Source: Byssovorax sp.
GTDB lineage: Bacteria; Myxococcota_A; Polyangia; Polyangiales; Polyangiaceae
Direction: 5' to 3'
NCBI GenBank assembly: GCA_025362495.1
Contig: JANYGI010000093.1
Span: 1 to 33,359, forward strand
DNA: 33,359 nucleotides
Both the position numbers and the translations under genes were made by a program. Under the pieces are notes generated by a model. The model saw only the letters and a program-made list of their open reading frames with translations. It had not been told where the DNA came from and did not search any database. This document shows positions 238 to 33,268 of this stretch, one piece after another. Numbering within the stretch: the first letter of the stretch is position 1; each line of letters starts with the position of its first letter.

Positions 238-1290
238 CTACACATCCCCACCACCTCCGCCGCTCCTCGGTATCGCGCCACCCCCTGCTGATCGCCGCCC
301 CAGGACCCCGTCAAGTGGGCTCCACACCCCGAGCCCGCCGCGATTCAACACGTGTGTATAGATCATCGTCGTGCTCACATCGCGATGTCCGAGCAGCTCT
401 TGAATCGTGCGGATGTCATATCCCGCCTCCAGCAGATGGGTGGCGAACGAGTGCCGCAGCGTGTGACAGCTCGCCCGCTTCGCCAGCCCCGTCGCCAGCA
501 CCGCCGCGCGCACCGCGCTTTGCAGCACAGTCTCGTGCAGGTGATGCCGCCGCGTTCGACCCGTCACCGGCTCGCGGTAGGTGCGCGTCGCGGGGAACAC
601 CCACTGCCAGGGCCACTCGCGCGCCGCGTTCGGGTACTTTCGATCGAGCGCGTCGGGTAATTCCACCCAGCCGGCGTCGGCGTCGAGGTCGGCGAGGTGC
701 TGTTCGCGCACCCGGGCCAGGTGTCCGCGTAGCGGATTCACCATGCCTCGCGGCAGCATCGTCAGGCGATCTTGCCGCCCCTTCCCGTCGCGCACCACGA
801 TCTCCAGCCGCTCGAAGTCCAGGTCCTTCGCCCGCAGGCGCGCGCACTCGAGCAGCCTGAGCCCAGCTCCGTAGAGCAGCGACGCCATCAGCGCCGGAAC
901 ACCCCTCATCTGATTCAGCACCGCCGTGACCTCCCCGGGGGTGAGCACGGTGGGGACGCGGTGAGGCCGCTTGGCGCGCGTGAATTCTCCAAGGCGCGCG
1001 AGCGGCACCGACAGCACCTGGACGTACAGGAAAAGCAGCGCCGAGAGCGCCTGGTTCTGCGTCGATGGCGCGACGTGATGCTCGCTGGCAAGCGACGAGA
1101 GGAACGCTTCAATCTCCAGCGGCCCGAGCTCGCGCGGGTGACGGCGACCATGGAAGAGCACGAAGCGGCGGATCCACGCGCAGTAGGCCTCCGCGGTCCG
1201 AGGGCTATAGCCACGCGCGCGGATCGTTTCCCGAACGCGGTTGAGAAGACGTGGCGGGTTGCGGGAGAGGGAGGAGCTGCCGTCGTGCAT
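238..1290 (-). CDS. intI: Integron-integrase-type tyrosine recombinase (IntI family)
   Basis: A 350-residue site-specific recombinase. The N-terminal SAM-like core-binding domain spans about 14-105 and the catalytic domain about 113-318. Visible catalytic residues are R145 (GAGLRLLE), K170 nearby, H276 and R279 (CHTLRHSF), H302 (LLGHRDV) and nucleophile Y311 (TMIYTHV). The segment at about 211-235, with [16 protein letters not shown], matches the extra helix region that separates integron integrases from XerC/XerD. An open frame extends upstream to 1431. I chose the ATG at 1290 because it is preceded by a G-rich GGGGGGAG run and the upstream part is unlike the family. The C-terminal tail is Gly-rich and not conserved. 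In integrons the enzyme joins attC cassettes at attI, but I see no cassette array beside it, so it may be solitary or its array lies left of the window. Confidence 0.9.
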
Positions 1291-1456
1291 GGCTCCCCCC
1301 GACCGCACGCGCCGTACCAGGAAGAAAAACGCGACAGTCGAAGCTGAACCAGGGCGCGCAGCCCCTGGCGGCGACATGGCGGTCCGCACGGCCGCGTGTG
1401 CCGCCACAGCGATCTCGCTTGCAAAGCGCACCAGCTACCCTCTACCGTTCCTCTCC
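1291..1456. promoter_or_regulatory. Divergent intergenic region upstream of the intI-like gene
   Basis: These 166 bases separate the recombinase (-) from the unknown plus-strand gene at 1457. They must hold both promoters, and in a classical integron they would hold attI and the cassette promoter. I looked for a GTTRRRY core site and for paired RYYYAAC/GTTRRRY arms and found no good match. The closest string, GTTCCTC at 1447, departs from the consensus. I cannot place promoters with confidence. Confidence 0.3.
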
Positions 1457-6907: not shown

Positions 6908-7753
6908 TCAGTCGACGCAGAGCTTGTCGGTCTTGGGATCTTTCCAGGCGGGCTGGTTGTCGAGCTCGCGGACCTCGCCGGCGCGCGTGACGAGGTAGTC
7001 GACCGCGGTGTGGTTGTGGGGGCCGCAGCCGCAGAACTGGTAGCCGTAGAGGCGGACCTTGAAGCCATCGGCGACGGGCGTGACGCTGGTGGGATCGATC
7101 GTCTTCAGGAAGAGCACGGCGTCCTTCGGGAGATCGATCTTGCGGAGGGCCTTCGAGTCGGTGAGCGCGACGGCGAAGGCGAGGGCCTCGGCCGGGGTCT
7201 CGACGGGGGCGAAGCGCTTCACGAACGCGTCCTTGGTGTCGATGAGATCGAGCTTCTTGCCGTCGGCGACGACGTAGCGATGCCAGGTCGCGAGGCGGCA
7301 GCCGGAGCGATAAATCCCCTTCACTTCGAGGCCGCGACCGAGGGTGTCGCACCCGGTGATCGCGCTCTTGGGCGAGAGGGCGCCGAGGAGATCGTCGGCG
7401 CGCGAGTATTCGCCGCAGGTGATGCCGTCGCCCTTGGCCGTGCTCGGCGTGCCGCAGACGAGGGCGTCGCCCGCGACCTTGCAGCCGAGCTTGAGCAGCG
7501 GCTCGCGATCGACGTGCGCGTCGAAGGCGGTGACGACCGGGCCGGTCGCGGGCATCTCGGGGCGCGGGATGGCGCTCGCCGTCGGCGCCGCCGGATCGGT
7601 CGTCGAGGCGACAGGGGCCGCCGTGGGCGCGACCGTCGGCGCGATCGTCGGCATCGGCGGCGAGGCGACGGGAGGCGTGGCCTCGGGCGTCGTGCGGGGC
7701 TCGCAGGCGGCGAGTGAAATCGAGGCGGCGAGGAGCAGGAACGAGGTGCGCAT
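6908..7753 (-). CDS. Cys-rich envelope lipoprotein, function unknown
   Basis: A 281-residue lipoprotein. The signal peptide ends in the lipobox LAAC, giving a lipidated C17. A Pro/Thr/Ala-rich linker (about 20-70) leads to a folded domain with eight further Cys residues, in LGC, LVCGT, ITCGE, TGCDT, SGCRL, FCGCG (two) and the C-terminal LCVD. The even number and the extracytoplasmic location suggest four disulfides. The segment FCGCGPHNHTAVDY brings Cys and His residues together and could bind metal. I do not recognise the family. The start is ATG 7753. It lies 51 bases downstream of the Hsp33 gene on the same strand and could be co-transcribed with it. Confidence 0.85.
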   Translation of the reverse strand: MRTSFLLLAASISLAACEPRTTPEATPPVASPPMPTIAPTVAPTAAPVASTTDPAAPTASAIPRPEMPATGPVVTAFDAHVDREPLLKLGCKVAGDALVCGTPSTAKGDGITCGEYSRADDLLGALSPKSAITGCDTLGRGLEVKGIYRSGCRLATWHRYVVADGKKLDLIDTKDAFVKRFAPVETPAEALAFAVALTDSKALRKIDLPKDAVLFLKTIDPTSVTPVADGFKVRLYGYQFCGCGPHNHTAVDYLVTRAGEVRELDNQPAWKDPKTDKLCVD

Positions 7754-7804
7754 CGCCGCGGTTCATAGCCCGGAATCCCCGGGCCGACTACCCGCGGCGC
7801 GGCG

Positions 7805-8686
7805 TCAGTTGGTGGTGAGCAGGGGCTTCAACTGCATGGGCGGGACCTGGTAGTCCTTGCGGCAGTAGTCGCAGGTGATGTCGAGCACGTCGTCGCCCTT
7901 GACCAGATCCTCGATGTCGCCGCGCGGCAGCGTGGACAGGCTCTCGACGACGCGGGCCTGGCTGCAGTGGCAAGCGAACGAGAGCGGCGAGGTCTCGAGG
8001 CGCGTGAAGGGGAAGCCGTAGAGCAGCTCGTCCATCAGCGTGTCGGGGCTGGCCTCGGGCCGCGCGAGGGCCTCTTCGAGCGCCTCGAATGCCTGCAAAC
8101 GCTCGGTCATGATCATCAGCGGGCCGCGCTCGATCTCGGGCAGGAGCTGGACGATGTAGCCGCCCGCCGCGACGACGCGATCGCCGTCGAGCAGCGTGGC
8201 CACGGCGATGGTGGAGACGATCTGCTCCGAGTCCTGCATGTAGGCCATGAGCGCGCGCGAGACGACGCCGCCCGCCGCGGGATCCGACGCCGATCCCGGG
8301 ACCTCGATCACGCCCTGGTGGATCGTCCCGCCGGGGAGGCTGCGCATCATCTGCAAGAGCACGCCGTCGCCGAGGAGCAGCTCGCCGTGCTTCGATCCGA
8401 AGTTGACGAGGCCGCGGCTCGTCCCGTCGGGGTTCGAGTCAGCGACGAGGCTGCCCCTGCTGCGCTTGCCCTTGAGGATCCCCTGCACCCGGAGCGCGGG
8501 CGCCATCGCCTCGCGGATCAGGATGGCGCCTGTCATCAGCTCGCCGAAGCGCCGCGCGATGTCGCCGTGCGCCTCCTGGGCGGCGACGGCGCCGCGCACC
8601 GTCTCGGTGGTCATCGCGGTGATGACGCGGAAGGCGCCGTCGTCGGTGATCGATCGGACCACGCGGTCCCCGCTCGCTGTTCCCAT
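7805..8686 (-). CDS. hslO: Hsp33-family redox-regulated chaperone
   Basis: A 293-residue protein matching Hsp33, the cytoplasmic holdase that is inactive when its four Cys bind zinc and active once they form disulfides under oxidative and heat stress. The C-terminal redox switch is present as C239-x-C241 (ACHCSQ) and C272-x2-C275 (TCDYCRKDY). The N-terminal domain has the family's long beta-sheet region with GSLVADSNPDG and the MMRSLPGG segment. Length is normal for the family. ATG 8686 fits the Hsp33 N terminus. A much longer open frame upstream is only the shadow of the peptidase gene. It starts 11 bases after the oligopeptidase A stop codon, so the two are very probably one transcript pairing a peptidase with a chaperone. 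Confidence 0.93.
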   Translation of the reverse strand: MGTASGDRVVRSITDDGAFRVITAMTTETVRGAVAAQEAHGDIARRFGELMTGAILIREAMAPALRVQGILKGKRSRGSLVADSNPDGTSRGLVNFGSKHGELLLGDGVLLQMMRSLPGGTIHQGVIEVPGSASDPAAGGVVSRALMAYMQDSEQIVSTIAVATLLDGDRVVAAGGYIVQLLPEIERGPLMIMTERLQAFEALEEALARPEASPDTLMDELLYGFPFTRLETSPLSFACHCSQARVVESLSTLPRGDIEDLVKGDDVLDITCDYCRKDYQVPPMQLKPLLTTN

Positions 8687-8697
8687 ATCGTTTGACC

Positions 8698-10761
8698 TCA
8701 AACAGTCGCCGTGCCCGACGCGACGAGGCCGTCGCGCTCGAGCAGCGCCTCGAGCGTGGGCTCGCGGCCCATGAAGCGGCGGTAGAGCACCATCGGATCC
8801 TCGCTGTCGCCGCGGGCGAGGATCTCGGCGCGGAAGGCCTGGCCGACCTCGCGGTTGAAGAGCCCCTCGCGGCGGAAGCGCGAGAACGCGTCGGCGTCGA
8901 GGACCTCGGCCCACTTGTACGAGTAGTAGCCGGCGGCGTACCCGACCGGGCTCGAGAACAGGTGGGTGAAGCCCGCGACCATCGCGTGATCGTCGGGCAG
9001 CTTGACCGGCGAGAAGCGGTTGAGCAGCGTGCGCGCCCAGCCGGTGATGTCGCCCTGGGCTTCGTCCCAGTCCATGTGGAGGCCGAGATCGACCTCGGCG
9101 AAGCCGAGCTGGCGCATCATCGCGGTGGCCGCGCGGAAGGTGCGCGCCGCGCGCATGCGCTCGAGCACGTCGGCGGGGATCGTCGCGCCGGTGTCGACGT
9201 GGCGCGCGAACAGGTCGAGGGCCTCGCGCTCCCAGCACCAGTTTTCCATGATCTGCGAGGGCAGCTCGACGAAGTCCCACGCGACGTTGGTGCCGGCGAG
9301 GGTGCGCACCTCGACCCGGCTCGACGCGTGGTGCATCAGGTGGCCGAACTCGTGGAAGACGGTCTCGACCTCGCGGTGGCTGAGGAGCGCGGGGCGATCG
9401 CCGAGCGGCAGCGTCATGTTGCCCGCGAGGACCTCGAGGTGGTGCGCCGGGCCGCCGTCGCCGGCGACCTGGGTTACCAGGCCCTGCATCCACGCGCCGT
9501 CGCGCTTCGCTTCGCGCGGGGCGACGTCGACGTAGAAGGCCGCGCTGACGGTGCCGTCGGCCTCGCGGATGCGGAACGCGCGCACGCTGGGGTGCCACAC
9601 GGCCGCGTCGGTCCAGGGCTCGACCGTCACGCCGTAGAGGCGCGTGGCGATGGTGAACGCCCCTTCGAGGACGCGATCGAGCGCGAAGTACGGGCGCAGC
9701 GCCTCGTCGTCGAAGTCGAAGCGCGCGCGGCGGAGCTTCTCCGAGTAGTAGCCGACGTCCCACGGCGCGAGGGCCGGCGCCGTCGGGCCCTCGAGGTCGC
9801 GGCGGAAGGCCTCGAGCTCGGTGATCTCGCGATCGAAGAAGTGCGCCGCCTTCTCGCGCAGCGTCTCGATGAAGCGGCGCGCAGCGTGGCCGGACTTCGC
9901 CATGCGGTCTTCCAGGACGAGATCGGCGAAGGTGGCGAAGCCGAGGAGCTTGGCCTTTTCCCGCCGTAGCAGCACGATTTGCTTGACGATCGGGCGGTTG
10001 TCGAGCTCGCCCACCGTGGCCCGCGTGCTGAACGCGCGGTAGAGCGCCTCGCGCAGCGCGCCGTCGTCGAGGTACGTGAGCGCGGGGACGTAGCTCGGCG
10101 CCTGGAGGCTGAAGCGATACCCGGCGAGGCCTTTGCTGTCGGCGCCAGCGCGGGCCGCGGCGATCGCGCTCTCGGGGAGGCCGCCGAGGCGCGACGCGTC
10201 GGGGACCACAATCTCGAAGGCGTTGGTCGCGTCGAGCACGTTCTGGCCGTAGCGCAGCGTCAGCGTGGCGAGCTCGACGTCGATGGCGGAGAGCCGCTTT
10301 TTCCCCTCGGGATCGAGATCGGCGCCGCTGCGCCGGAAGTCGGCCACCGTCTTGTCGACGAAGCGCTTCCGCGCGCCGGTGAGCGCCTGCGCCTCGGGCG
10401 TCGCGGCGAAGGCCTTGAGCGCCTGCCACACCGGAGCCGAGAGGGCGATGCTGCTGAACAGCTCGCTCACCGCGGGCTGCACGGCGTTGTACGCGGCGCG
10501 CAAGGCCGGCGTGGTGGCCACCGACTCGAGGTGCCCGACGACGCCCATGACGAGCTCGAGGCGCTCGGTCACCGCTTCGAGGGCGTCCATCGTGTTGGCG
10601 TAGGTGCGCGGCGCGGGATCGCTGCCGAGCGCCGCGAGTCGGGCGCGGGCCTCGTCGAGCAGCGACGCGACGGCGGGCTCCACGTGCTCGCCGCGGATGC
10701 GGTCGAACGGGATCTCGTCGCCGAGGGTGAGCAGGGGATTGTCGACGGCCGCGCTGGACAT
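8698..10761 (-). CDS. prlC: Oligopeptidase A, M3 family zinc metallopeptidase
   Basis: A 687-residue cytoplasmic peptidase that cleaves short peptides, including signal-peptide remnants in the enterobacterial homologue. It aligns by eye with E. coli OpdA/PrlC along its whole length: N-terminal NPLLT, NVLDAT near 174-179, YSEKLRR, and WHP..R. The zinc site is HEFGH (470-474) with E499 in FVELPSQIMENWCWE as third ligand. GYAAGYYSYKWAEVL lies near the C terminus. The start is ATG 10761; the open frame extends further but that part is not family-like. It is the first gene of a probable operon with hslO 11 bases downstream. Its promoter should be in 10762-10974. Confidence 0.94.
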   Translation of the reverse strand: MSSAAVDNPLLTLGDEIPFDRIRGEHVEPAVASLLDEARARLAALGSDPAPRTYANTMDALEAVTERLELVMGVVGHLESVATTPALRAAYNAVQPAVSELFSSIALSAPVWQALKAFAATPEAQALTGARKRFVDKTVADFRRSGADLDPEGKKRLSAIDVELATLTLRYGQNVLDATNAFEIVVPDASRLGGLPESAIAAARAGADSKGLAGYRFSLQAPSYVPALTYLDDGALREALYRAFSTRATVGELDNRPIVKQIVLLRREKAKLLGFATFADLVLEDRMAKSGHAARRFIETLREKAAHFFDREITELEAFRRDLEGPTAPALAPWDVGYYSEKLRRARFDFDDEALRPYFALDRVLEGAFTIATRLYGVTVEPWTDAAVWHPSVRAFRIREADGTVSAAFYVDVAPREAKRDGAWMQGLVTQVAGDGGPAHHLEVLAGNMTLPLGDRPALLSHREVETVFHEFGHLMHHASSRVEVRTLAGTNVAWDFVELPSQIMENWCWEREALDLFARHVDTGATIPADVLERMRAARTFRAATAMMRQLGFAEVDLGLHMDWDEAQGDITGWARTLLNRFSPVKLPDDHAMVAGFTHLFSSPVGYAAGYYSYKWAEVLDADAFSRFRREGLFNREVGQAFRAEILARGDSEDPMVLYRRFMGREPTLEALLERDGLVASGTATV

Positions 10762-10974
10762 GGCTTTCTCGTCTCGATGGCGACGGAGCCGCCGGCCTCG
10801 GCCGAGGGCCCCCGAGGGACGTGGGTGGTCGGTGTACGTACGGCCTCGCGCCCGCCGAGGCAACGTCGGATCAAGGCCCGGTCGCGCGGTGGCCCGGTGT
10901 GACGAAGCATCCACCGGCGCACATTCACCGCCGATCAGGGTCAAGGTCCCGCGGGGCAGTCCGATGAATGAGCC
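10762..10974. promoter_or_regulatory. Divergent intergenic region with a 12-bp palindrome
   Basis: These 213 bases separate prlC (-) from the hypothetical gene at 10975 (+), so promoters for both should be here. A perfect palindrome CCTCGGCCGAGG occupies 10796-10807, 35 bases upstream of the prlC start. A dimeric regulator could bind there, but in DNA this rich in G+C such a palindrome can arise by chance. I see no convincing -35/-10 pair. Confidence 0.35.
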
Positions 10975-11445
10975 ATGGAATCATTCGAGCCGCAGACCCA
11001 CGGCGCCGCTTCGCACGCCGATTCCCTCGATCTCTCGACGTACAAGAGGCCCGGCGTCCGCGAAGGCGCGCCCGCCGCGCGCGAGCCCGGCTGGATCGTG
11101 ATGACCTCGTCGAGCGAGCCCTCCAACGTTCGTCCGGCCTGGGCCCGCTCGCGATCGCCGCGGTCGTTCGAGCCCCGCCGCCGCCGCCACCTCCGCGTCT
11201 CGCCGACGTGGCAGCCCCGCGCCGGCGCCTCGCTCGACGGCTTCCAGCCCTGGGAAAACCCGCTCTACCCGCGCATTCCCAAGGCGCCGCGGCTGCCCAG
11301 CGAGTTCGACGGCGTGACGCCCGCGAGCCCGAGCATGGCCCCGCAAGTCTTCGAAGACGGCGGCCTCGATCTGATCCACGGCGAGCCCTCGATGTGGCCG
11401 GCCGTGCGCCGCGTGTGGACCTGGCTCCGCGGCGGCAGCCGCTGA
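10975..11445 (+). CDS. Hypothetical Pro/Arg/Ser-rich protein, probably disordered
   Basis: A 156-residue protein of unknown function. The first half is rich in Ser, Pro and Arg (for example FEPRRRRHLR) and looks disordered. The second half has aromatic and Pro motifs (FQPWENPLYPR, PSMWPAVRRVWTWL), and the basic, Trp-containing C terminus could be a short amphipathic helix. There is no signal peptide or membrane segment. Third codon positions are consistently G/C, which supports real coding over the antisense frame at 10981-11649. The start is ATG 10975. It converges on the esterase gene with 10 bases between the stop codons. Confidence 0.65.
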   Translation: MESFEPQTHGAASHADSLDLSTYKRPGVREGAPAAREPGWIVMTSSSEPSNVRPAWARSRSPRSFEPRRRRHLRVSPTWQPRAGASLDGFQPWENPLYPRIPKAPRLPSEFDGVTPASPSMAPQVFEDGGLDLIHGEPSMWPAVRRVWTWLRGGSR

Positions 11446-11455
11446 TCGCGCGCCG

Positions 11456-12751
11456 CTACAGCGCGTTGAAGATCTGGAACGGCAGATACGCGCGCGCGGC
11501 CCAGGCGGCCTCGTTGTGCATCGCCCCCGGCGTGTAGCTGTAGAAGAAGTCCTGATCCTTCGTGTACCCGACGCCGTAGAGCACGTCGCGGAGCTGGGCG
11601 TTCTCGCAGTAGTTGTCCCCTGCCGTCGCGCTGTCGTCCTGGATGCCATCGCCGTCGCTGTCGACGCACGGGCCTTCGCCGCCCGAGTCCAGGTAGAGCA
11701 CCGTCGTCTGATGACCGTGCTTGCCGTAGCGCTCGATCAAGGTCTCGTTGTGGATGCCGGCGCCGATGCTGCCCCACCCCATCGTCCCCGACATGCTGGC
11801 CGCGAACGCGTACTCGCCCGGCTCGTGGTCGGCGATGTGGAAGCTTATCAGGCCGCCGAGCGAGGAGCCCATCACCCCCACGGGGCCCGGCTCGCCGTAC
11901 TGCTTCCTGATCAACGGCCGCACCGTGTTCTTGAGGAAATCGGCGTAGAGATCGCCCTTTCCGCCGAGCGACTGGCCGCTGATCACGTCGGGCACGTGGG
12001 TGTACTCGTCCATGCGGTCGCTGGTGTTGTCGATGCCGACGAGCAGCATCCCGAGCGGGGCGGTGTCTTGAAGATGCCAGCCGCCGAAGAACGCCCCGGG
12101 ATCGAAGAGGTTCTGCCCGTCGTGCACGTAGAGCTCGTGCTTGATCGGATCCTTCGGGACCCAGACGCGGAGCGTGCGCGGCTGCAACTTCGCGTCGCCG
12201 ATCGCCGGCCAGCGATCGAGGTGCGCAAAGGGAGGCGCGACGAGGCTGATCTCGCCGTTGGCGTCGTAGAGGTACGAGCGGGCCCACGGATCGGCCTGGA
12301 ACGTGGTCTTGTCGGTGAACTTGTAGTGCTCGCCGACGGGCACCTCGATCACCACCCAGAGGAAGCCGGCGTCGGCCTTCATCGCCGTGCCCGCCCAGCT
12401 GTCGTGATCGCCCGCGGCGAAGCCGAGCGTCATGTCGGTGTTGACGAAGAGGTGGCCGCCCGCGACGGGGACGGGCCATCCGCTCTCGCCGGCGTGCTTC
12501 GTCAGGGCGCCGGTGGTGTCGGCGCGCAACTCGGTGAGGATCGTGTCGAGATCGCCGACCATCACGCTGCCGCCCGTGCCGGCCGCGCTGCTCGCGTCGC
12601 TCGATTCCGATCCCGATCCGCCCGCGCCGCCGGCGGAGGATCCCGTCGCGGTCGCGCCGCTCGGCTCGCCGACGACCGAGCCGCACGCGGACGCGAAGAG
12701 CAGGAGCAAGCTCGAGAGCGGGGCGAGAGCGGAGCGAGAGAAGAGCTTCAC
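11456..12751 (-). CDS. Lipoprotein esterase, alpha/beta-hydrolase (Fes/esterase-D type)
   Basis: A 431-residue predicted envelope esterase. The signal peptide ends in FASAC, giving a lipidated C23, followed by a Gly/Ser/Ala linker to about 62. An N-terminal beta-sandwich-like part (about 95-190, with HDSWAG and RSYLYDANG) resembles the carbohydrate-module fold that precedes such esterases. The hydrolase begins near RTLRVWVPK. The nucleophile is S297 in GSSLGG, the likely acid is D355 (LYLDSGGEG) and the likely base is H412 (GAMHNEAAW). Directly after the acid residue lies an Asp-rich loop, DSDGDGIQDD (364-373), like calcium-binding thrombospondin-3 or EF-hand loops. The start is GTG 12751 with GAGGTG at 12758-12763 upstream. 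Relatives cleave siderophore, feruloyl or acetyl esters; the substrate here is unknown. Confidence 0.88.
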   Translation of the reverse strand: MKLFSRSALAPLSSLLLLFASACGSVVGEPSGATATGSSAGGAGGSGSESSDASSAAGTGGSVMVGDLDTILTELRADTTGALTKHAGESGWPVPVAGGHLFVNTDMTLGFAAGDHDSWAGTAMKADAGFLWVVIEVPVGEHYKFTDKTTFQADPWARSYLYDANGEISLVAPPFAHLDRWPAIGDAKLQPRTLRVWVPKDPIKHELYVHDGQNLFDPGAFFGGWHLQDTAPLGMLLVGIDNTSDRMDEYTHVPDVISGQSLGGKGDLYADFLKNTVRPLIRKQYGEPGPVGVMGSSLGGLISFHIADHEPGEYAFAASMSGTMGWGSIGAGIHNETLIERYGKHGHQTTVLYLDSGGEGPCVDSDGDGIQDDSATAGDNYCENAQLRDVLYGVGYTKDQDFFYSYTPGAMHNEAAWAARAYLPFQIFNAL

Positions 12752-12852: not shown

Positions 12853-13536
12853 ATGGCAGCGCAGGATCTCACGGAGCTCTTCGATCTCTACGATCGCGAC
12901 GGCGCGCCGCTCGGCGTGGCGAAGGCGCGCGGCGACGTGCATCGCGACGGCGACTGGCACCGGAGCGTGCACATCTGGGTGGCCTTGCGCGACGGCTCGG
13001 GCGCGCCCGGCGCCTCGCGCGCGCCGTGCCTGCTGTTCCAGCGGCGCTCGCTCGAGAAGGACACCTGGCCGGGCGCGCTCGACGCCGCGGTGACCGGTCA
13101 TCTGCGCGCGGGCGAGGCGATCCTCGACGGCCTGCGCGAGGCCAGGGAAGAGATCGGCGTCGCGATCGGGCCCGACGACGTGGTCCGCCTCGGCCTTCGA
13201 AGGTGCGCCGACGAGCGCGTGGCCGGCCTCCGCGATCGCGAGCTGCAGGAGATCTTCGCGACCGCGACGCCGCTCCCGCTCGCGGCCTTCACGCCCGATC
13301 CCGACGAGGTCACGGCGCTCGTGGCCATCGATTTCGCGGCCGTCACGGCGCTGCTGCGCGGCGAGCTCGACGTCGTGGAAGGCTTTGAAATGAGGGGTTC
13401 GGGCGATGGCGCCGCGATCGTCACGGTGCGCGCCGACGACTTCGTGCGACCGGCCGACGGGTACTATGCCGTCGTGCTGCGGAGCCTCGGCGCGTGGCTC
13501 GAGGGCCGCGCCGAAGCTCCGTGGACGATCGGCTGA
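12853..13536 (+). CDS. Nudix hydrolase (isopentenyl-diphosphate isomerase/YfcD-like subgroup)
   Basis: A 227-residue cytoplasmic Nudix protein, expected to hydrolyse a nucleoside-diphosphate-linked or similar substrate with divalent metal. The N terminus FDLYDRDGAPLGVAKARGDVHRDGDWHRSVHIWV resembles the IPP-isomerase/YfcD entry strands. The Nudix box is GHLRAGE followed by LREAREEIGV, at about residues 82-103. The distance between the first Glu and the REx2EE helix is one residue shorter than the textbook GX5EX7REUXEEXGU pattern, although REAREEIG is intact. The C-terminal half (CADERVAGLRDRELQEIF) fits the same subgroup. The start is ATG 12853, without a strong ribosome site. It diverges from the esterase gene and converges on the M13 peptidase gene with 4 bases between the stops. 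Confidence 0.85.
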   Translation: MAAQDLTELFDLYDRDGAPLGVAKARGDVHRDGDWHRSVHIWVALRDGSGAPGASRAPCLLFQRRSLEKDTWPGALDAAVTGHLRAGEAILDGLREAREEIGVAIGPDDVVRLGLRRCADERVAGLRDRELQEIFATATPLPLAAFTPDPDEVTALVAIDFAAVTALLRGELDVVEGFEMRGSGDGAAIVTVRADDFVRPADGYYAVVLRSLGAWLEGRAEAPWTIG

Positions 13537-20031: not shown

Positions 20032-20931
20032 TCACGTCAGCCGGACGAGCGCGCCCAGGCTGACGTCGAGCTTGCTGCGGACGATGCCGAGGAGGCTCTG
20101 CAGCTCGGTCGGGCTCGCGGGGAGGCGCTCGCCGAGCAGCCGCAGCGTCTCCTCGAGCACCCGGGCGCGCCCGGAGATCATCCGCCGGCCCACCGTGGCG
20201 CGCGAGAGGCCGAGGACGCGCGCGATGGCGTCGAGGTTCAGTCCGTCCATGAAATACAGGCGAAGCACGTTGCGCTCCTCCCCGGAGAGCGAGGCGAAAG
20301 CGTCGCTCAGCGCGGCCTGGAAGGCGGCGCCGTAGCGGCGCTTGATCAGCGTGAGCTCGGGATCGATCACGGTCATCGCGGCGGGGCTCCCGGCGTCGTC
20401 GGCGAGCGTGGCGCGGTGACCCTCGTCGCGCCGCGCGTTCGACGCCGCGCGGATCGCGGCGACGCGCAGCCACCCCGCGAGCGAGCCGCGGCCGTCGTAG
20501 TCGACGATCTTCGCGCGCCCGCCGGCCGTCCCGACGAAGAGGCGCTCGCGCAGGGACTGCACGACCTCGTCGGCGACGTCGCGCGCGATCCCCTTGCGCA
20601 TGAGCAGCTGCGGCAGCGGCGCAAGGTAGTGGCGATCGAACGCGGCGACGCTGGCGGCGTCCCCCGCCGCGCACGCGCAGGCGAGGTAGAGGTCCGCGGC
20701 CTGAAGTCGATCGAGGTGCGCGGGCGAGGCCCCCGGCGTCCGCGCTGCCAGGTAACGCACGAAGGTCGCGTCGTCGGTCGCGGCGGACTTCCAGGCGGCG
20801 CGCCCCTCGGCGAGGAGGCGCGCGAGGGACGCTTCGAGCGCGTCGTGATCCGGCGGATCGACGGCGCCCTCCGCGCCCGCAGGCGCGCGCGCCACGAGGA
20901 ACACGGCGGCGAGAGCACAGCGATCACTCAA
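20032..20931 (-). CDS. Sigma-70-family RNA polymerase sigma factor, myxobacterial type
   Basis: A 299-residue alternative sigma factor. Region 2 lies at about 96-168 (ARDVADEVVQSLRERLFV, then GRGSLAGWLRVAAIRAASNARR). Region 4 lies at about 203-262, with a helix-turn-helix in LNLDAIARVLGLSRATVGRRMISGR. There is a longer than usual N-terminal extension. I associate this layout with a myxobacterial group of ECF-like factors (TIGR03001, from memory). The displayed start is TTG 20931; GTG codons at 20904 and 20892 are alternatives. It lies 25 bases downstream of the lipoprotein gene on the same strand. The divergent kinase carries an anti-sigma-type zinc finger, which makes that kinase the prime candidate for its control. 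Confidence 0.9.
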   Translation of the reverse strand: MSDRCALAAVFLVARAPAGAEGAVDPPDHDALEASLARLLAEGRAAWKSAATDDATFVRYLAARTPGASPAHLDRLQAADLYLACACAAGDAASVAAFDRHYLAPLPQLLMRKGIARDVADEVVQSLRERLFVGTAGGRAKIVDYDGRGSLAGWLRVAAIRAASNARRDEGHRATLADDAGSPAAMTVIDPELTLIKRRYGAAFQAALSDAFASLSGEERNVLRLYFMDGLNLDAIARVLGLSRATVGRRMISGRARVLEETLRLLGERLPASPTELQSLLGIVRSKLDVSLGALVRLT

Positions 20932-20956
20932 GCCGCCAGGCTACCACGCGTCGGCG

Positions 20957-22348
20957 CTACGGCTCGCGCCAGAGGACGACGCCGCTGCCGCTCTGGTCGC
21001 CGCCGAGCGTCCCGTCGAAGGCCATCGTCAGCTTGTTTTCGTGGGTGAAATACGAGTCGACGTACTTGCCGCCGAGGTCCGCGTACTTCTTGTCGGCGTC
21101 GGCGCCGCACGCGGCCCAGGTCTTCAGATCGCTCGAGCGGATGATGCGCGGGTCGCCGCAGGCGTTGTCGCCGCTGCCGCCGTTGATGTACGCCGACACC
21201 GCCGCGTTGCCCTTGGAGTCGATCGCCAGCGACTGATACCAGGCCGTAAACGACGATCCGTCGCGCGGGAGCTGCACCGGGGCGGCCCAGGTCAGCCCGT
21301 CGGTCGACGTCGCGACGCGCAGATCGTAGGGGGCCGACGTCTCGGCGACGAGGTGCGCGGCGAGGCGCGGCCTGGTCCCGTCAAAGGCCAGGCTCAGCGA
21401 GGGGTCATCGTTCTGGATGTCGTTCGAGTCCATCACCTTCACCGGAGCGCTGCCCGGTCGCCAGTAGATCGCGGTGGTGTTGTAGCCCGTCGCCGGCCCC
21501 TGGAAGAACGCCAGCGCCGGCTTCCCCGCCGAGTCCACGGCGATGGAGACGGTGCTGCCCGAGACCTGCACCGGGCCGGCCGCGTCGCTCACCATCGCGC
21601 GCGTGAACGTCGCGCCGTCGCCTTCGAGGTACCAGACCGCGGCGCACCCGCCGCAGTTCGGGTCGGCGAGGAGGCAGCACGCGTGGTTGTCCTGCGCGTA
21701 GGCGATCTGGATCTTCCCGCCGGTCAGCGCGACGACGGGGCCGCGCGCCTGCTCGATGTCGCCCGGCTTCTGCTCGCTGACCTGAAGCTTGCCCGTCCAC
21801 GTCGCGCCGAGATCCGCCGAGGTCTGGAGGAAGATCCCGTTGCTCGCGTTGTACCCGGTCACCTGGAAGATCTCTTCGTAGGCGATCGCCAGCTTCTTCG
21901 TGGCGAGGTCGTAGGCGAGCGCGACCCTCCGCGTCGGGCCGTTGGTGCTGACCCCGCCGACGACGTCGACCTTCACCGGCGTCGTGAAGGCGCCGGCGCA
22001 GCGATCCCAGCGCGTGAAGTAGACGGCGGTCTGATCTTGATTGTTGCCCGGCGAATTCCACTGGTAAGCGATCATCGGATCGTCGTTTTCATCGGCGACG
22101 ACGGCGGTGTCGATGCCGAGCGTCCCGTCGGTGCTCGGCGCGACGACGGTGGTGAAGCCCGACGGCGGCGCCTTGTCGCAGGTCGCGCCGCCTCCTCCAG
22201 AGGTGCTCGACGACGCGCCCGAGGTCGACGATGTGCCCGAGGTCGACGCCGGGTCCGAGCACGCGGCGAGCGCTGCCGCGACCGAGAGCCCGAGGGCGGC
22301 GAAGAAGCGGGGGCGAAGCAGGCGCGAAATCGTGGTAATTGACGTCAT
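20957..22348 (-). CDS. Lipoprotein with sialidase/BNR-like propeller repeats
   Basis: A 463-residue predicted surface or periplasmic lipoprotein. The signal peptide ends in ALAAC, giving a lipidated C30, followed by a Ser/Thr/Gly linker. The body has repeating beta-strand units with Asp-box-like motifs (TSADLGATWTG, TSTDGLTWAAP, SSDLKTWAACG) and recurring AIDSKGNAAVSAYI / AVDSAGKPALAFF strands, as in six- or seven-bladed sialidase-fold propellers. No catalytic Arg triad is evident, so I read it as a binding or scaffold propeller. A cluster of Cys (HACCLLADPNCGGCAAVW) is unusual. The start is ATG 22348. An in-frame GTG at 22396 would overlap the divergent promoter. It is the first gene of the operon with the sigma factor. 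Confidence 0.82.
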   Translation of the reverse strand: MTSITTISRLLRPRFFAALGLSVAAALAACSDPASTSGTSSTSGASSSTSGGGGATCDKAPPSGFTTVVAPSTDGTLGIDTAVVADENDDPMIAYQWNSPGNNQDQTAVYFTRWDRCAGAFTTPVKVDVVGGVSTNGPTRRVALAYDLATKKLAIAYEEIFQVTGYNASNGIFLQTSADLGATWTGKLQVSEQKPGDIEQARGPVVALTGGKIQIAYAQDNHACCLLADPNCGGCAAVWYLEGDGATFTRAMVSDAAGPVQVSGSTVSIAVDSAGKPALAFFQGPATGYNTTAIYWRPGSAPVKVMDSNDIQNDDPSLSLAFDGTRPRLAAHLVAETSAPYDLRVATSTDGLTWAAPVQLPRDGSSFTAWYQSLAIDSKGNAAVSAYINGGSGDNACGDPRIIRSSDLKTWAACGADADKKYADLGGKYVDSYFTHENKLTMAFDGTLGGDQSGSGVVLWREP

Positions 22349-22431
22349 TTGAAGCTGGTTCTCCTCGGGCGATCGAACACCCTGCTCCCGGGACACGGCG
22401 CTCGGTGGGTTGTCTCAGCTCCCCCGCAAAA
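22349..22431. promoter_or_regulatory. Short divergent control region of the sigma/kinase locus
   Basis: Only 83 bases separate the start of the lipoprotein-sigma operon (-) from the kinase start (+). Both promoters must be here or overlap the coding ends. A TCCCGGGA palindrome lies at 22386-22393, with GAACACC just to its left. I cannot assign -35/-10 elements. If the sigma factor is autoregulated, its recognition element should lie here. Confidence 0.4.
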
Positions 22432-25167
22432 ATGATCGGCTGCCTCGACGACAACGCGATCGCGGCGCTCCTCGACGGCGAGGTGCTCCCCGCCGAGCGG
22501 GCGGCGCTCAGCGCGCACCTCGACACGTGCGACGCGTGCCGCGCGCTCGTCGCCGACGCGTTCCAGAGCGCGACGGTCGAGGGCCCGCGGGTCCTCGGAC
22601 CGGGGACGACGCTGGGCCGCTACGTGGTCCTCGAAGCGGTGGGCGCCGGCGCGATGGGCGTGGTCTACGCCGCCTACGATCCCGAGCTCGGGCGCAAGGT
22701 CGCGCTCAAGGTGCTCCGCCCCGATCCGCTGGCGGACTCGCCCTCGCGCGGCGCGCGGCGGCGCCTGCTCCGCGAGGCGCAGGCGCTGGCGAAGCTCTCG
22801 CACCCTCACGTGATCGCCATCCACGACGTCGGCACGCTCGACGGCGAGATCTTCCTGACGATGGAGTTCATCGAGGGCGGGACGCTCGGCGGCTGGCTCG
22901 CTTCCGAGAAGCGCTCGTGGCGCGCGGCGCTGGAGCTGCTCCGGCAGGCCGGCGAGGGGCTGGCCGCGGCGCACGAAAAAGGCCTGGTTCACCGTGATTT
23001 CAAGCCCGAGAACGTCCTCGTCGAGGCGGGGCGACGCGCGCGCGTGACCGACTTCGGGCTGGCGCGGCCCGCCGGCGAGCGCGGCCCGGGCGCGGATGAT
23101 CGCGACGCCGACGAGGCCACAGCGCGCAGCAGCGAAGCGCCGCCGGAGCCGCAGCTCACCGCGACCGGCGTGCTCGTGGGAACGCCGGCGTACATGGCGC
23201 CGGAGCAGCTCGCGGGCGGCCCCGCGGACGCGCTGTCGGATCAGTTCAGCTACTGCGTGACGCTCTACGAGGCGCTCCACGGCGAGCGGCCGTTCGAGGG
23301 CACCGACGTGGCGTCGCTGCAGCGATCGATCGCGCGCGGGCAGGTGCGGCCGGCGCCGCCGACGCGACGCATCCCCGCGTGGCTGCGGCGGCTCGTCACG
23401 CGGGGTTTGCAGGCCGATCCGGCGCGTCGGTTCCCCTCGATGCGCGCGCTGCTCGACGCGCTCGGCGCCGGGCCCGCCGCGTGGCCGAAGCGGATCGCGA
23501 TCGCCGCGGCCCTGCTCGCCGGCGTCGCGCTGATCGCATCGAGCCTGTCGCGGCGGGCGCCCGCCATGTGCACCGGCGCCGACGCCGCGTGGAGCGGCGC
23601 GTGGGACGGGTCGCATGCGGCGGCGGTGCGGGCGGCGTTCGAGCGCGCGGGGCGCCCTTCAGGCGCGCACGCGCTCGCCGAGGTCACCCGCGCGCTCGAC
23701 GACGAGAGCGCGCGCTGGCACGCGATGCACCGGGACACCTGCGAGGCGACGCGCGTCCGCGGCGAGCAGTCCGAGCAGCTCCTCGACTTGCGGATGCGGT
23801 GCCTCGACGATCGCCGACGCGAGGTGGCGACGCTGACGCGCCTGCTCGAGCACGCCGACGGCGAGATCGTCGATCACGCCGTGTCGGCCTCGATGTCGCT
23901 CCCCGCGCTCGACGCCTGCAGCAACCTGCGCGCGCTCTCGGCGCAGATCCCGCTACCCGCGGCGCCCGAGGTGCGCGCGCAGATCGACGCGGTCGACGAG
24001 CGGCTCGCGCAGGCCAACGCGCTGCACTACGCCGGCAAATATGGCCAGGGGCTCGAGCTCATCGGGCCGGCGCTCGACGAGGCGCGCCGGCTAGGGTTCG
24101 CACCGATCCTCGCCAAGGCCCTGCTCGTCGAAGGTCGCCTCGCCGCCGGCTCCAACGATTTTGCCCGCGCCGAGGGCGCCTTCCACGAGGCCGCCGCCGT
24201 CGCCGAGGACGCCCACGACGACGACGTCGCCGCCGACGCGTGGACCGCCCAGGTCCGGGTGATCGGCTTCAACCGGTCGAGGCCGCTCGAGGGCCGCACC
24301 TGGGCGCGCTACGCGGAGGCCGCGATCCGCCGCGCCGGAGGCGACGATGAGCGCGAGGCCGTTCGCCTCCGCAACCTCGCCACCGTCGTGTGGCGACGGG
24401 AAGGTCAGCTCGACGAAGCCCGCCGGCTCCTCGGTCGCGCCCGCGACCTCTACGACCGCACCCACGGCGCGCGCTACGAGCTCCAGGTTGCGAGCTGCGA
24501 CGAGGACATCGCCGGCATCGCGTTCGACCTGGCGCGCCCCGACGAGGCGCTCGTGCTTCATCGCCGCGTCGCCGAGGTGCGTGAGCGCATCTTCGGCGCC
24601 GATCACCCGTCGATCGCGACCGCGTGCGTGAACCAGGGCGAAGATCTGACGCTGCTCGGGCGCCCCGACGAAGCCATCGCGCTGATCGAGCGGGCCGTCG
24701 CCATCGCCGCGCCGCTCCGGGCGCGCGGAGGCGACGGCTACTACCGGCATCGCCTCGCCGCAGCGCTGCGCGGGAAGGGCGAGCCCCGCGCCGCGCTCGA
24801 GCAGGATCGCCTCGCCGTCGCCGCGAGCGCCCTCGCTGGCGAGACCGGTGGCTACTGGGAGTCGTGGTCGCTCACCGGGCTCGGGCTCGATCTGCTCGCG
24901 CTCGATCGTCCTGCCGAGGCCGTCGATCCGCTCGAGCGCGCCGTGAGCGAGCGGGCCGCGGGCTCCGTCCCGTTCGAGCTCGCCGAGTCGCGCTTCGCCC
25001 TCGCTCGCGCGCTCTGGGAGACGGGCGCGCGCCCGCGAGCCCGCGCGCTGGCCGAGAGCGCGCGCGACGGGATCCGCGCCCCCGCCGAGCGCTATGGATC
25101 CTGGTACGCCTCGACGCTCGACACCATCGATCGCTGGCTCGTCGCGCACCCGGCGCGCGGGACGTGA
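22432..25167 (+). CDS. Transmembrane Ser/Thr protein kinase with N-terminal anti-sigma-type zinc finger and C-terminal TPRs
   Basis: A 911-residue fusion. Residues 1-45 form a zf-HC2/ZAS-like finger with H29-x3-C33-x2-C36 (HLDTCDACR) and C4. A Hanks-type kinase spans about 60-345: glycine loop GAGAMGVVY, K93 (VALKVL), catalytic HRDFKPEN (187-194), DFG D207 and GTPAYMAPEQ (250-259). A single membrane helix lies at about 354-374 (IAIAAALLAGVALIASS). The rest (about 380-911), probably periplasmic, contains TPR units, clear from about 560 on (FARAEGAFHEAAAVAEDAH, PDEALVLHRRVAEVRERIFG, PDEAIALIERAVAIA). All catalytic residues are present. The start ATG 22432 places the finger at the N terminus; GTG 22405 is an alternative. 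The finger plus the divergent sigma gene suggests that the protein binds or phosphorylates the sigma factor. Confidence 0.93.
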   Translation: MIGCLDDNAIAALLDGEVLPAERAALSAHLDTCDACRALVADAFQSATVEGPRVLGPGTTLGRYVVLEAVGAGAMGVVYAAYDPELGRKVALKVLRPDPLADSPSRGARRRLLREAQALAKLSHPHVIAIHDVGTLDGEIFLTMEFIEGGTLGGWLASEKRSWRAALELLRQAGEGLAAAHEKGLVHRDFKPENVLVEAGRRARVTDFGLARPAGERGPGADDRDADEATARSSEAPPEPQLTATGVLVGTPAYMAPEQLAGGPADALSDQFSYCVTLYEALHGERPFEGTDVASLQRSIARGQVRPAPPTRRIPAWLRRLVTRGLQADPARRFPSMRALLDALGAGPAAWPKRIAIAAALLAGVALIASSLSRRAPAMCTGADAAWSGAWDGSHAAAVRAAFERAGRPSGAHALAEVTRALDDESARWHAMHRDTCEATRVRGEQSEQLLDLRMRCLDDRRREVATLTRLLEHADGEIVDHAVSASMSLPALDACSNLRALSAQIPLPAAPEVRAQIDAVDERLAQANALHYAGKYGQGLELIGPALDEARRLGFAPILAKALLVEGRLAAGSNDFARAEGAFHEAAAVAEDAHDDDVAADAWTAQVRVIGFNRSRPLEGRTWARYAEAAIRRAGGDDEREAVRLRNLATVVWRREGQLDEARRLLGRARDLYDRTHGARYELQVASCDEDIAGIAFDLARPDEALVLHRRVAEVRERIFGADHPSIATACVNQGEDLTLLGRPDEAIALIERAVAIAAPLRARGGDGYYRHRLAAALRGKGEPRAALEQDRLAVAASALAGETGGYWESWSLTGLGLDLLALDRPAEAVDPLERAVSERAAGSVPFELAESRFALARALWETGARPRARALAESARDGIRAPAERYGSWYASTLDTIDRWLVAHPARGT

Positions 25168-31978: not shown

Positions 31979-33268
31979 TCATTCCGCCGCGATTGGCTCC
32001 GTTTCCAGCGTGTTACCACGCTGGCGGGCCCGCTCCAGCGCCCTCGACCGCAGCAACCACCCGCGTGCCTTGCTCTTCTTGACGCGTTGCGCCGCCGCCC
32101 GCGACTGCTCGGGGACCAGCTTCGCGTCCCGTTGCTCTTGCCCCGCTTCGTGCGCGCGGCCGAGGACCCCGACCGCCACCCCCTTGTCCGCGTTGAGGAC
32201 CTCGGCATACTTCTGCGTCGTTGCCAAGTCCTCATGTCCAGCCAACGCGCTGACGACATGCACAGGCACGTGACCGTTCAGGAGCGCGGTCACGAAGTAG
32301 GCCCGGAGAGCATGCAGGCGATGGCGCGGAAGTTTGCACCTCCGAAACGTCGCTTGCAGCATCGCCCAGATCCCATCCTGGCCCCAGGGCTTCCGCCAAC
32401 TCGACAGTGCCGCCTCTTGATCACGCGGGCGCGTGTCGACGCCGGTCGCGAGAAGCGCTGCCCTCAGTTGCGGAGACAGGGGCACGATGCGCTCCTTCCT
32501 CCCCTTGGTCGATCCCGTCACCTCGCGGTAGCGGGACAGACGCACGATGAGGCGATTGCGATCGAAGTCGACATCGCTACACCGAAGGGCGCGGATCTCG
32601 CCCCTTCTCAATCCCCCATGAGCCGCGAGCAGCATCGTCGCGCGGTGTTCATCACACGTTGTAGCGTCGATGCACGTTGCGACATCGACGACACTCGGGG
32701 CGACAGGCACGCGCTTGATGCGTTTCGGAAGGGCCAGAAGAAGCGGCGGCTTCTCGAGGATCTTCGCTTCGAGTGCAAACCGCACCACACTGCGCAACGC
32801 GAGAAACGTGTTGGCTCGCGTCGAGACCTTCGAGCCTCGCTCCAGCATGGCGACGTCGATCTCACGCGACTTCGACACTTCGATCGCCTCCGACATCACC
32901 AGATGTCCGAGATGAGGAAGCAGACACGATCGCAACTTGCTCTCGTAACTATCTCGCGTCGAGTATTCGAGCGCGGACGGCGCGTATTCGGCAAGATACC
33001 GCTTCGCTACGTCCGCGAACGTGGGCTCGGGAGGCGGCTTGATCTCCGCTGCCTTGGCTCGGAGCGGGACGCCGTTCTTATCGACGATGATCTCCGGATC
33101 CCCGAACAGCGTTGCTCCGAGCTTCCGGCCCGCTTCTTCCGTCTGCGCCGCCGCCATGATCTGCACGGCGGCATCGCGACGGTACCGCCCCTCGGTTCCG
33201 TCAGGTTTCGTGAATGAAAAGTCAATGACCAGGAACCGCTTACCGCGCCGATTCGTCTTGCGTACCAT
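31979..33268 (-). CDS. Phage/genomic-island-type tyrosine integrase
   Basis: A 429-residue site-specific recombinase. An arm-binding-like N terminus (about 1-70, basic with strands FLVIDFSFTKPDG) is followed by a core-binding domain (about 80-175) and a catalytic domain (about 190-365). Catalytic residues are R221 (GGLRRGEIRAL), K255 or K258 in STKGRKER as likely Lys, H319 and R322 (RLHALRAYF), H345 (AGHEDL) and nucleophile Y354 (TTQKYAEV). A basic C-terminal tail follows. Third codon positions use A and T noticeably more than in neighbouring genes, and the gene adjoins an A+T-richer junction, both signs of transfer. The start is ATG 33268 with GAGAAGGAAG upstream (33276-33285). The element it moves should extend to the right, beyond the window. 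Confidence 0.92.
   Translation of the reverse strand: MVRKTNRRGKRFLVIDFSFTKPDGTEGRYRRDAAVQIMAAAQTEEAGRKLGATLFGDPEIIVDKNGVPLRAKAAEIKPPPEPTFADVAKRYLAEYAPSALEYSTRDSYESKLRSCLLPHLGHLVMSEAIEVSKSREIDVAMLERGSKVSTRANTFLALRSVVRFALEAKILEKPPLLLALPKRIKRVPVAPSVVDVATCIDATTCDEHRATMLLAAHGGLRRGEIRALRCSDVDFDRNRLIVRLSRYREVTGSTKGRKERIVPLSPQLRAALLATGVDTRPRDQEAALSSWRKPWGQDGIWAMLQATFRRCKLPRHRLHALRAYFVTALLNGHVPVHVVSALAGHEDLATTQKYAEVLNADKGVAVGVLGRAHEAGQEQRDAKLVPEQSRAAAQRVKKSKARGWLLRSRALERARQRGNTLETEPIAAE

Follow-up and report, generated by a model that had tools for sequence, protein, structure and literature searches.

The locus described here raises the question whether a serine/threonine kinase can at the same time be the anti-sigma factor of the sigma factor encoded next to it. 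It occupies positions 20,032 to 25,167 of a 33,359-nucleotide contig of Byssovorax sp. (Polyangiaceae; GenBank assembly GCA_025362495.1, contig JANYGI010000093.1), the whole of which was analysed and is referred to as the window. A gene for a sigma factor of the extracytoplasmic function (ECF) type, family gmx1, and a gene for a kinase with an N-terminal zinc finger are here oriented away from each other. We consider it probable that this divergent pair encodes a gmx1 sigma factor and its own anti-sigma factor equipped with a Hanks-type kinase, in which the finger would hold the sigma factor and signalling by the kinase would release it. We observed the anatomy of the locus, the pairing of the two genes across many related genomes, a finger homologous to ZAS anti-sigma domains and, in addition, a sister family that lacks the kinase. 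Binding of the sigma factor, its inhibition, the phosphorylation sites and the signal are the parts that we infer in reading the protein as a fused anti-sigma factor and kinase.

Organization of the locus

The sigma factor gene (20032-20931, minus strand) codes for 299 residues from an uncertain TTG start, and residues 57-296 match the Sig-70_gmx1 profile (TIGR03001) with 237 bits (E 1.8e-70) against a curated cut-off of 154.6, which places the protein in this family. On the plus strand, a gene with an ATG start (22432-25167) codes for 911 residues comprising an N-terminal anti-sigma-type zinc finger, a Ser/Thr kinase, one transmembrane helix and C-terminal tetratricopeptide repeats (TPRs). 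The finger, C4-x24-H29-x3-C33-x2-C36 (22441-22539), was recognized by alignment, by comparison with the PDB and with structures and by the Pfam family zf-HC2 (PF13490; residues 9-37, 31.3 bits, cut-off 22.2); its probable ligands are H29, C33 and C36, with C4 as the likely fourth. The Pkinase domain (residues 64-337, 22621-23442) has the catalytic Lys, HRD and DFG motifs of a Hanks-type Ser/Thr kinase, hydropathy predicts a membrane helix at residues 355-373 (23494-23550), and TPR_12 was matched in four stretches of the C-terminal region, the best-scoring at residues 692-759 (24505-24708). The zf-HC2, Pkinase and TPR_12 matches all exceed the Pfam cut-offs. An earlier interpretation made from the letters alone (the sequence-only reading) had described a complete kinase with one membrane helix, TPRs and an H-x3-C-x2-C motif at residues 29-36, all of which are present, and did not mention the C4 ligand. 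Its spacings were right as well, namely 25 bases from the stop codon of an intervening lipoprotein gene to the sigma factor TTG and 83 bases (22349-22431) from the lipoprotein ATG to the kinase ATG.

Pairing of gmx1 sigma factors with finger kinases

A TIGR03001 search of 39 genomes, the window's own (G000; 10.8 Mb, 240 contigs) and 38 relatives, gave matches above the cut-off in 15, often several per genome. From the relatives we took the 48 places listed above the cut-off outside the window's genome together with two just below it, and from one scan of named genomes the best 80 of 119 confirmed loci. Scores against a profile of five paralogues of the window's genome separated a gmx1 family proper of 81 loci with at least 140 bits (27 named, five own and 49 from relatives) from a lower-scoring group of 53 loci with at least 84 bits (52 named and L165 of the relative G008), the named locus L107 falling just below 84. 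The 81 loci are called Myxococcota because of the titles of the 27 named ones (e.g. Nannocystis, Polyangiaceae, Kofleriaceae, Myxococcaceae, Myxococcales, Deltaproteobacteria) and their kinship to the window's genome.

A kinase with an H-x3-C-x2-C finger (hereafter finger kinase) was found within 200 bp of the sigma factor in 51 of the 81 gmx1 loci, within 500 bp in 57, within 1 kb in 62, within 2.5 kb in 66 and within 5 kb in 68. In 44 of these 68 loci the genes are divergent, in 11 the kinase lies downstream on the same strand, in seven the genes converge and in six the kinase lies upstream. The catalytic residues are retained in nearly all of the 68 finger kinases (VAIK Lys 66, HRD Asp 65, Asn 66, DFG Asp 66). 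ZAS anti-sigma factors are encoded beside their sigma factor and often have a transmembrane segment and a sensor part; the finger kinase gene likewise stands beside that of its putative cognate ECF sigma factor. The linkage of sigma factor and Ser/Thr kinase of which the sequence-only reading spoke is therefore frequent for gmx1. It could still be argued that the two are neighbours without any functional link, seeing that orphan finger kinases and a few gmx1 loci without a finger kinase exist (both are described below), but rough arithmetic with 13 finger kinases in one 12.2-Mb genome predicts about 0.4% of loci within 500 bp against the 57 of 81 found, the orientations are mixed, and a finger of the kinase type also lies beside the sister sigma factor, which leaves this explanation hardly credible.

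In the window's own genome, all five gmx1 sigma factors above the family cut-off have a kinase nearby whose N-terminus carries an H-x3-C-x2-C finger. The aligned parts are separated by 37-87 bp in the three pairs that diverge directly and by 690 bp in one convergent pair; in the window the lipoprotein gene intervenes, with 1504 bp between the aligned sigma factor and kinase parts. Three further zf-HC2 matches of this genome (on contigs C214, C11 and C84) were checked and none lies on a kinase of the finger-kinase kind. The divergent pair was also found in named Nannocystis genomes (L042-L044, L047, L051) and therefore the unit can be tested. A natural fusion of sigma factor and kinase did not occur among the open reading frames (ORFs) of the window and of the own-genome, named and relatives' loci.

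The 13 gmx1 loci without a standard finger kinase within 5 kb were inspected singly. Three have finger-domain kinases in which some or all of the ligands are gone (L118, at 4.05 kb; L135, overlapping; L045), so that the question whether kinase homologues keep the finger ligands is answered positively for most and negatively for a few. At L122 a finger ORF stops short of any kinase, with a contig end about 0.5 kb away, and at L142, L164 and L054 the contig ends at the sigma factor or close to it; L142 also has, at a distance of 3.6 kb, a finger ORF without a kinase. The remaining six are discussed with the counter-evidence. A kinase-free finger ORF was also seen at L152, 2.4 kb from the sigma factor and besides a finger kinase.

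Similarity of the finger to anti-sigma domains

The 68 finger kinases were chosen by H-x3-C-x2-C, the upstream Cys being no selection criterion; it is nevertheless found 20-30 residues before the His in 67 of them and exactly 25 before it in 58. With C4, H29, C33 and C36 the window's protein has the ligand pattern of ZAS domains (C/H...H-x3-C-x2-C near the N-terminus). A 25-row finger profile searched against PDB sequences (E<=10) gave seven matches, of which five are anti-sigma chains: 3hug chain B, titled RslA, as the best (E 2.5e-6), DdvA (8rlz, 3.7e-5), ChrR (2q1z and 2z2s, about 0.01) and RsiW (5wuq, 0.016). The other two are a 991-residue CHAT domain-containing protein with a DdvA finger stretch (8rot, 3.1e-4) and a ferritin (E 1.4). 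The finger is thus homologous in sequence to solved ZAS domains. NCBIfam gave weak RsrA-type and antisigmaE matches on the finger kinase (E 0.002-0.004, below cut-off). The AlphaFold2 model of the finger (predicted local distance difference test score, pLDDT, 81.7) has three helices at residues 7-14, 20-32 and 34-48, and Foldseek against 350,542 chains (E<=10) returned three matches, all weak, to RsiW twice (0.33, 0.44) and RseA (6.8), each an anti-sigma factor in complex with its sigma factor. VIA-align superimposed the finger on RsiW with Z 6.3 over 61 residues (root-mean-square deviation 3.6). The earlier view of the finger as an anti-sigma module is supported by these PDB and Foldseek matches and by the kinase-free finger of the sister loci.

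A sister family without the kinase

The 52 lower-scoring named loci bear titles of Acidobacteriota type (Pyrinomonadaceae, Blastocatellia, Acidobacteria). When a profile made from the 68 kinase fingers alone was run against all ORFs of at least 70 residues, 51 of the 52 loci had a finger ORF, always on the strand of the sigma factor and downstream of it, with 16-952 bp between the aligned sigma factor and the start of the open frame; in the exception, L066, the sigma factor is close to the contig end. A kinase was found on none of these 51 ORFs. A transmembrane segment follows the finger in 37 of the 51 proteins, the ligands are H-x3-C-x2-C plus one residue further upstream, which is His in 49 and Cys in two, and Pfam zf-HC2 was found in all five examples scanned, in three above the cut-off. 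Judged by sequence, the sister finger proteins are ordinary ZAS anti-sigma factors. In the relative's locus L165 a kinase with a degenerate finger lies 115 bp from the sigma factor.

Since 51 of the 52 sister loci carry a kinase-free finger, one finger type occupies one genomic place both with and without an attached kinase. The finger kinase may have originated when a kinase was joined to a ZAS anti-sigma factor, an order of states that we infer. A quick sigma factor tree (73 rows, about every second row after removal of eight loci and of short rows, with four unrelated ECFs as outgroup) separated the 27 Acidobacteriota-type rows from the others by a branch with a Shimodaira-Hasegawa-like approximate likelihood ratio test (SH-aLRT) value of 90. 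On the free tree gmx1 (41 rows) needs two changes; a tree with gmx1 as one clade was likelier and was not rejected by the approximately unbiased test (p-AU 0.875).

The sister family also bears on a different explanation, in which the finger would be a docking module alone and the kinase would activate the sigma factor by phosphorylating it, likeliest at its C-terminal Ser/Thr, without any sequestration. A finger that stands beside the sigma factor with no kinase attached fits sequestration and not substrate docking, and we regard the docking explanation as rather unlikely; what speaks for it is found in the sigma factor itself.

Conserved residues of the sigma factor

In an alignment of 78 gmx1 sigma factors (three of the 81 were removed as shorter than 200), the conserved Ser/Thr are located in a C-terminal helix (residues 274-298; 20038-20112, minus strand) of the AlphaFold2 model, which has a pLDDT of 88.5 and a helical N-terminal extension. 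Position 279 is Ser in 70 of the 78 rows, position 286 is Ser in 64 and Thr in six, and position 291 is Ser in 53 and Thr in 19, so that Ser and Thr interchange there. Most of the 54 lower-scoring rows have other residues at 279 and 286, and at 291 the residue varies among them (17 Ser, one Thr). Such conservation would suit docking followed by phosphorylation of the tail, and the layout of a TPR receptor kinase beside an ECF sigma factor is that of PknS/EcfK (PMC13147305). On the other hand, the model gives the tail a helical form, and seven rows in which no finger kinase was found retain S279 (7/7), S286 (6/7) and S291 (7/7); positions 279, 286 and 291 are candidate phosphosites, but their role may be structural. 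The conserved Ser/Thr that the sequence-only reading looked for in the N-terminal extension were not found in the alignment. A fold search with the whole sigma factor model gave weak matches to known sigma structures, the best being an ECF (E 4.3e-3).

Region 2.2 speaks to another possibility, a switch like that of the ECF43 group, where the sigma factor would be inactive until phosphorylation of this region creates an acidic contact with RNA polymerase. An adjacent Ser/Thr receptor kinase gene is shared by gmx1 and the ECF43 pairs EcfP/PknT and EcfK/PknS (PMC8999054, PMC13147305). Yet ECF43 sigma factors lack the acidic motif in region 2.2 and have STTA-like residues there which take the phosphate, while the other kinase-linked groups keep acidic residues (PMC8999054), as does gmx1: at positions 121/122 at least one residue is acidic in 78 of 78 rows, both are in 58, and Ser/Thr occurs in four; the window's protein has D121-E122. 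The neutral region 2.2 with a Thr/Ser phosphosite that marks ECF43 is absent. Because gmx1 retains these acidic residues, an ECF43-type switch is very unlikely here, and of the two routes offered by the sequence-only reading, phosphorylation or binding by the finger, the latter provides the best fit; phosphorylation of region 2.2, the route established for ECF-linked kinases, is disfavoured.

A second kind of ECF-kinase pair is present on contig C51 of the window's own genome (L177), where a finger-less kinase otherwise of the same kind (9056-11653, plus strand) directly adjoins, in convergent orientation, an ordinary ECF sigma factor (11660-12355, minus strand) with an acidic EADDL region 2.2.

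Co-divergence and counter-evidence

Co-divergence was measured on 63 sigma factor-kinase pairs, i.e. the 67 available pairs minus four near-identical Nannocystis loci. With BLOSUM distances the correlation was 0.251 for sigma factor and finger (0 of 5000 permutations as high), 0.164 for sigma factor and kinase (162 of 5000) and 0.066 for kinase and finger (703 of 5000), and with identity distances 0.197 (0), 0.176 (99) and 0.040 (1173), respectively. When the four Nannocystis loci were kept, the identity distances gave 0.496, 0.382 and 0.244, each with 0 of 2000 permutations as high. The finger appears to track the sigma factor modestly more closely than it tracks its own kinase domain, as would be expected if the finger is the part that contacts the sigma factor.

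Several observations weigh against the finger kinase being a dedicated, membrane-bound anti-sigma factor of gmx1. Permutation within genomes weakens the co-divergence signal to 137 of 5000 (sigma factor-finger), 975 of 5000 (sigma factor-kinase) and 1454 of 5000 (kinase-finger), or to 67 and 431 of 2000 for the first two when identity distances were used and the four Nannocystis loci kept. Correlations within single genomes are mixed, the sigma factor-finger and sigma factor-kinase values being 0.0 and -0.19 in the window's own genome, 0.36 and 0.25 in G009, -0.29 and 0.02 in G019, 0.37 and 0.60 in G024 and 0.44 and 0.28 in G001. At six of the 81 gmx1 loci (L125, L138, L124, L041, L145, L147) no finger was detected by profile at E<=10; L145 and L147 have, 124 and 127 bp away, a finger-less kinase match and a kinase-like fragment, respectively. 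The single-contig genome G019 has at least 13 finger kinases, eight beside gmx1 and five without gmx1 within about 10 kb. A simple scan found a transmembrane helix in just 48 of the 68 finger kinases, so a membrane sensor is, as far as such prediction goes, not universal among them, and the paralogue on contig C64 of the window's genome is a 352-residue protein without one. Finally, the Foldseek matches of the finger are singly weak (E 0.33 or worse), and its three-helix model lacks the fourth helix which we take to belong to full anti-sigma domains.

The five orphan kinases of G019 resemble one another and the finger kinase beside the sigma factor L162, because of which they probably arose by local expansion; their targets might be gmx1 sigma factors encoded elsewhere. 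Weak sigma-profile matches of at most 22.9 bits lie near these orphans (L169-L173). At L162, also in G019, the gmx1 sigma factor is in two separated pieces (9266-9793 and 10802-11185) beside the finger kinase.

Proposed mode of regulation

In the mechanism that we favour, sequestration by the finger relieved by the kinase, the cytoplasmic finger would bind the sigma factor and keep it from RNA polymerase, and the Hanks-type kinase is predicted to sit between this finger and the membrane helix. Where present, the extracytoplasmic TPR part would sense a ligand or partner and turn the kinase on, whereupon phosphorylation in cis of the finger and the finger-kinase linker, perhaps also of the C-terminal tail of the sigma factor, would loosen the grip. 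The freed sigma factor would then turn on its regulon, to which its own divergent promoter region might belong. The linker, taken from C36 to the Gly-loop, measures 27-76 residues (median 45) in 63 of the 68 finger kinases. No column of the finger or linker stands out as a conserved phosphosite, Ser/Thr reaching at most 0.32 of rows; Ser/Thr make up 12.8% of the linker against 9.1% of the kinase part, and seven of the 63 linkers hold none.

A bolder version, which we put forward tentatively, would make one polypeptide receptor, kinase and anti-sigma factor, such that a ligand of the TPRs leads to phosphorylation of the protein's own finger or linker and of the sigma factor tail and thereby couples release with activation. 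Switches of this type, descended from a kinase joined to a ZAS anti-sigma factor, might then have multiplied to up to nine or ten systems per Myxococcota genome.

Relation to known systems

The finger kinase shares its homologous N-terminal finger with the ZAS anti-sigma factors RslA, ChrR, RsiW and RsrA and with DdvA of Myxococcus xanthus and differs from them by the Ser/Thr kinase between finger and membrane, as well as by the fourth helix missing from the model. The CHAT-domain chain 8rot, with its DdvA finger stretch, is an example of such a finger on a chain with a different large domain. RsbW/SpoIIAB are single proteins acting both as anti-sigma factor and as Ser kinase; unlike the finger kinase, they have a GHKL fold, are soluble, phosphorylate an anti-anti-sigma factor and contain neither a Hanks kinase nor a ZAS finger.

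The ECF43 sigma factors EcfP and EcfK are encoded beside the Hanks-type kinases PknT and PknS, and in PknS the TPRs are C-terminal and periplasmic and the N-terminus is extended by 83 residues (PMC13147305). The passages of that paper considered here mention no anti-sigma finger for ECF43 kinases, in contrast to the kinases linked to gmx1. Six ECF groups have been proposed to be regulated by kinases, and those other than ECF43 keep their acidic residues and may work otherwise (PMC8999054). Mycobacterial PknB phosphorylates the ZAS anti-sigma factors RshA and RseA, upon which the ECF sigma factor is released (PMC8999054). For the proposed release of the sigma factor this is the closest precedent, with the difference that PknB and its targets are separate proteins and here kinase and anti-sigma factor would form one chain.

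We found no description of the finger kinase-sigma factor unit in the literature, a prior mention in the papers on ECF classification, on EcfP and on the myxobacterial kinome (2008) being possible; the passages considered of PMC8999054, PMC8103513, PMC13147305, PMC7694542, PMC11032199 and PMC4374960 do not describe it. If our interpretation is correct, control by anti-sigma factors and control by kinases, so far the business of separate proteins and routes, would be joined in one chain. In two of the genomes the kinase query matched 161 and 175 stretches. To our knowledge, few of the many Ser/Thr kinases have known targets; a kinase whose sigma factor partner is written in its own sequence would offer a directly testable output for one kinase class, and the sister family without the kinase would serve as a natural control.

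The lipoprotein gene and the promoter region

The gene between kinase and sigma factor (20957-22348, minus strand; 463 residues) has a lipobox-like LAAC. The protein had been called propeller-like, and some Asp-box-like stretches can be read by eye; this motif reading is the sole basis of the name, as neither Pfam nor NCBIfam gave a match at E<=1. The gene is codirectional with the sigma factor gene 25 bases away, which would suit a three-gene unit, as suggested by the sequence-only reading, with the lipoprotein as sensor of the signal and the TPRs of the kinase as its target. No relative was found among the ORFs of the window and of the own-genome, named and relatives' loci, and one was found in the 38 other genomes, in two pieces at contig ends of G007, with no gmx1 sigma factor in the 9 kb downstream and the upstream side beyond the contig; moreover, sigma factor and finger kinase are paired without the lipoprotein. 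The three-gene unit is thus highly improbable. Of the three genes supposed to be conserved together, sigma factor and finger kinase indeed are, the lipoprotein as dedicated partner is not, and it was rejected as a member of the unit on conservation, noting that the G007 relative leaves its contig on the side equivalent to that of the window's kinase. We consider it a local addition outside the conserved unit, a passenger or target and not an essential part. Divergent to the gmx1 sigma factor of L125, which has no finger kinase nearby, lies a lipoprotein-like gene (7452-8813, minus strand) unrelated to that of the window.

The divergent promoter region of the window is the 83-base gap (22349-22431), delimited by spacing. 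A shared promoter motif, as anticipated by the sequence-only reading, was not found among 37 stretches. These derive from 43 divergent pairs, from which three whose sigma factor and finger lie more than 450 bp apart (the window among them) and the four near-identical Nannocystis loci were removed, and to which the window was returned as a 100-base piece around the gap. Some words slightly exceeded the maximum of 20 mononucleotide shuffles (CGCG-N20-GCCG, 7 vs 6; CGAGCG, 17 vs 14; CGAGCGC, 11 vs 8) and were rejected as plain GC-rich words.

Other features of the window

Searched with phmmer (E<=1e-20), the WD40 and RND proteins of the window matched nothing in the other loci, and the TPR gene at 28007 gave matches in three of them. 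At the far end of the contig, a XerD-like tyrosine recombinase (31979-33268, minus strand) scores below the family cut-offs and has no tRNA beside it, the single tRNA found in the window being that for Ala (12977-13054). Near the contig start lies an integron integrase (238-1431, minus strand; TIGR02249, 437 bits against a cut-off of 265), and any cassette array past it would lie outside the contig and out of view. Between two open frames, four copies of a tandem unit of about 42 bp with inverted-repeat character occupy positions 2213-2439.

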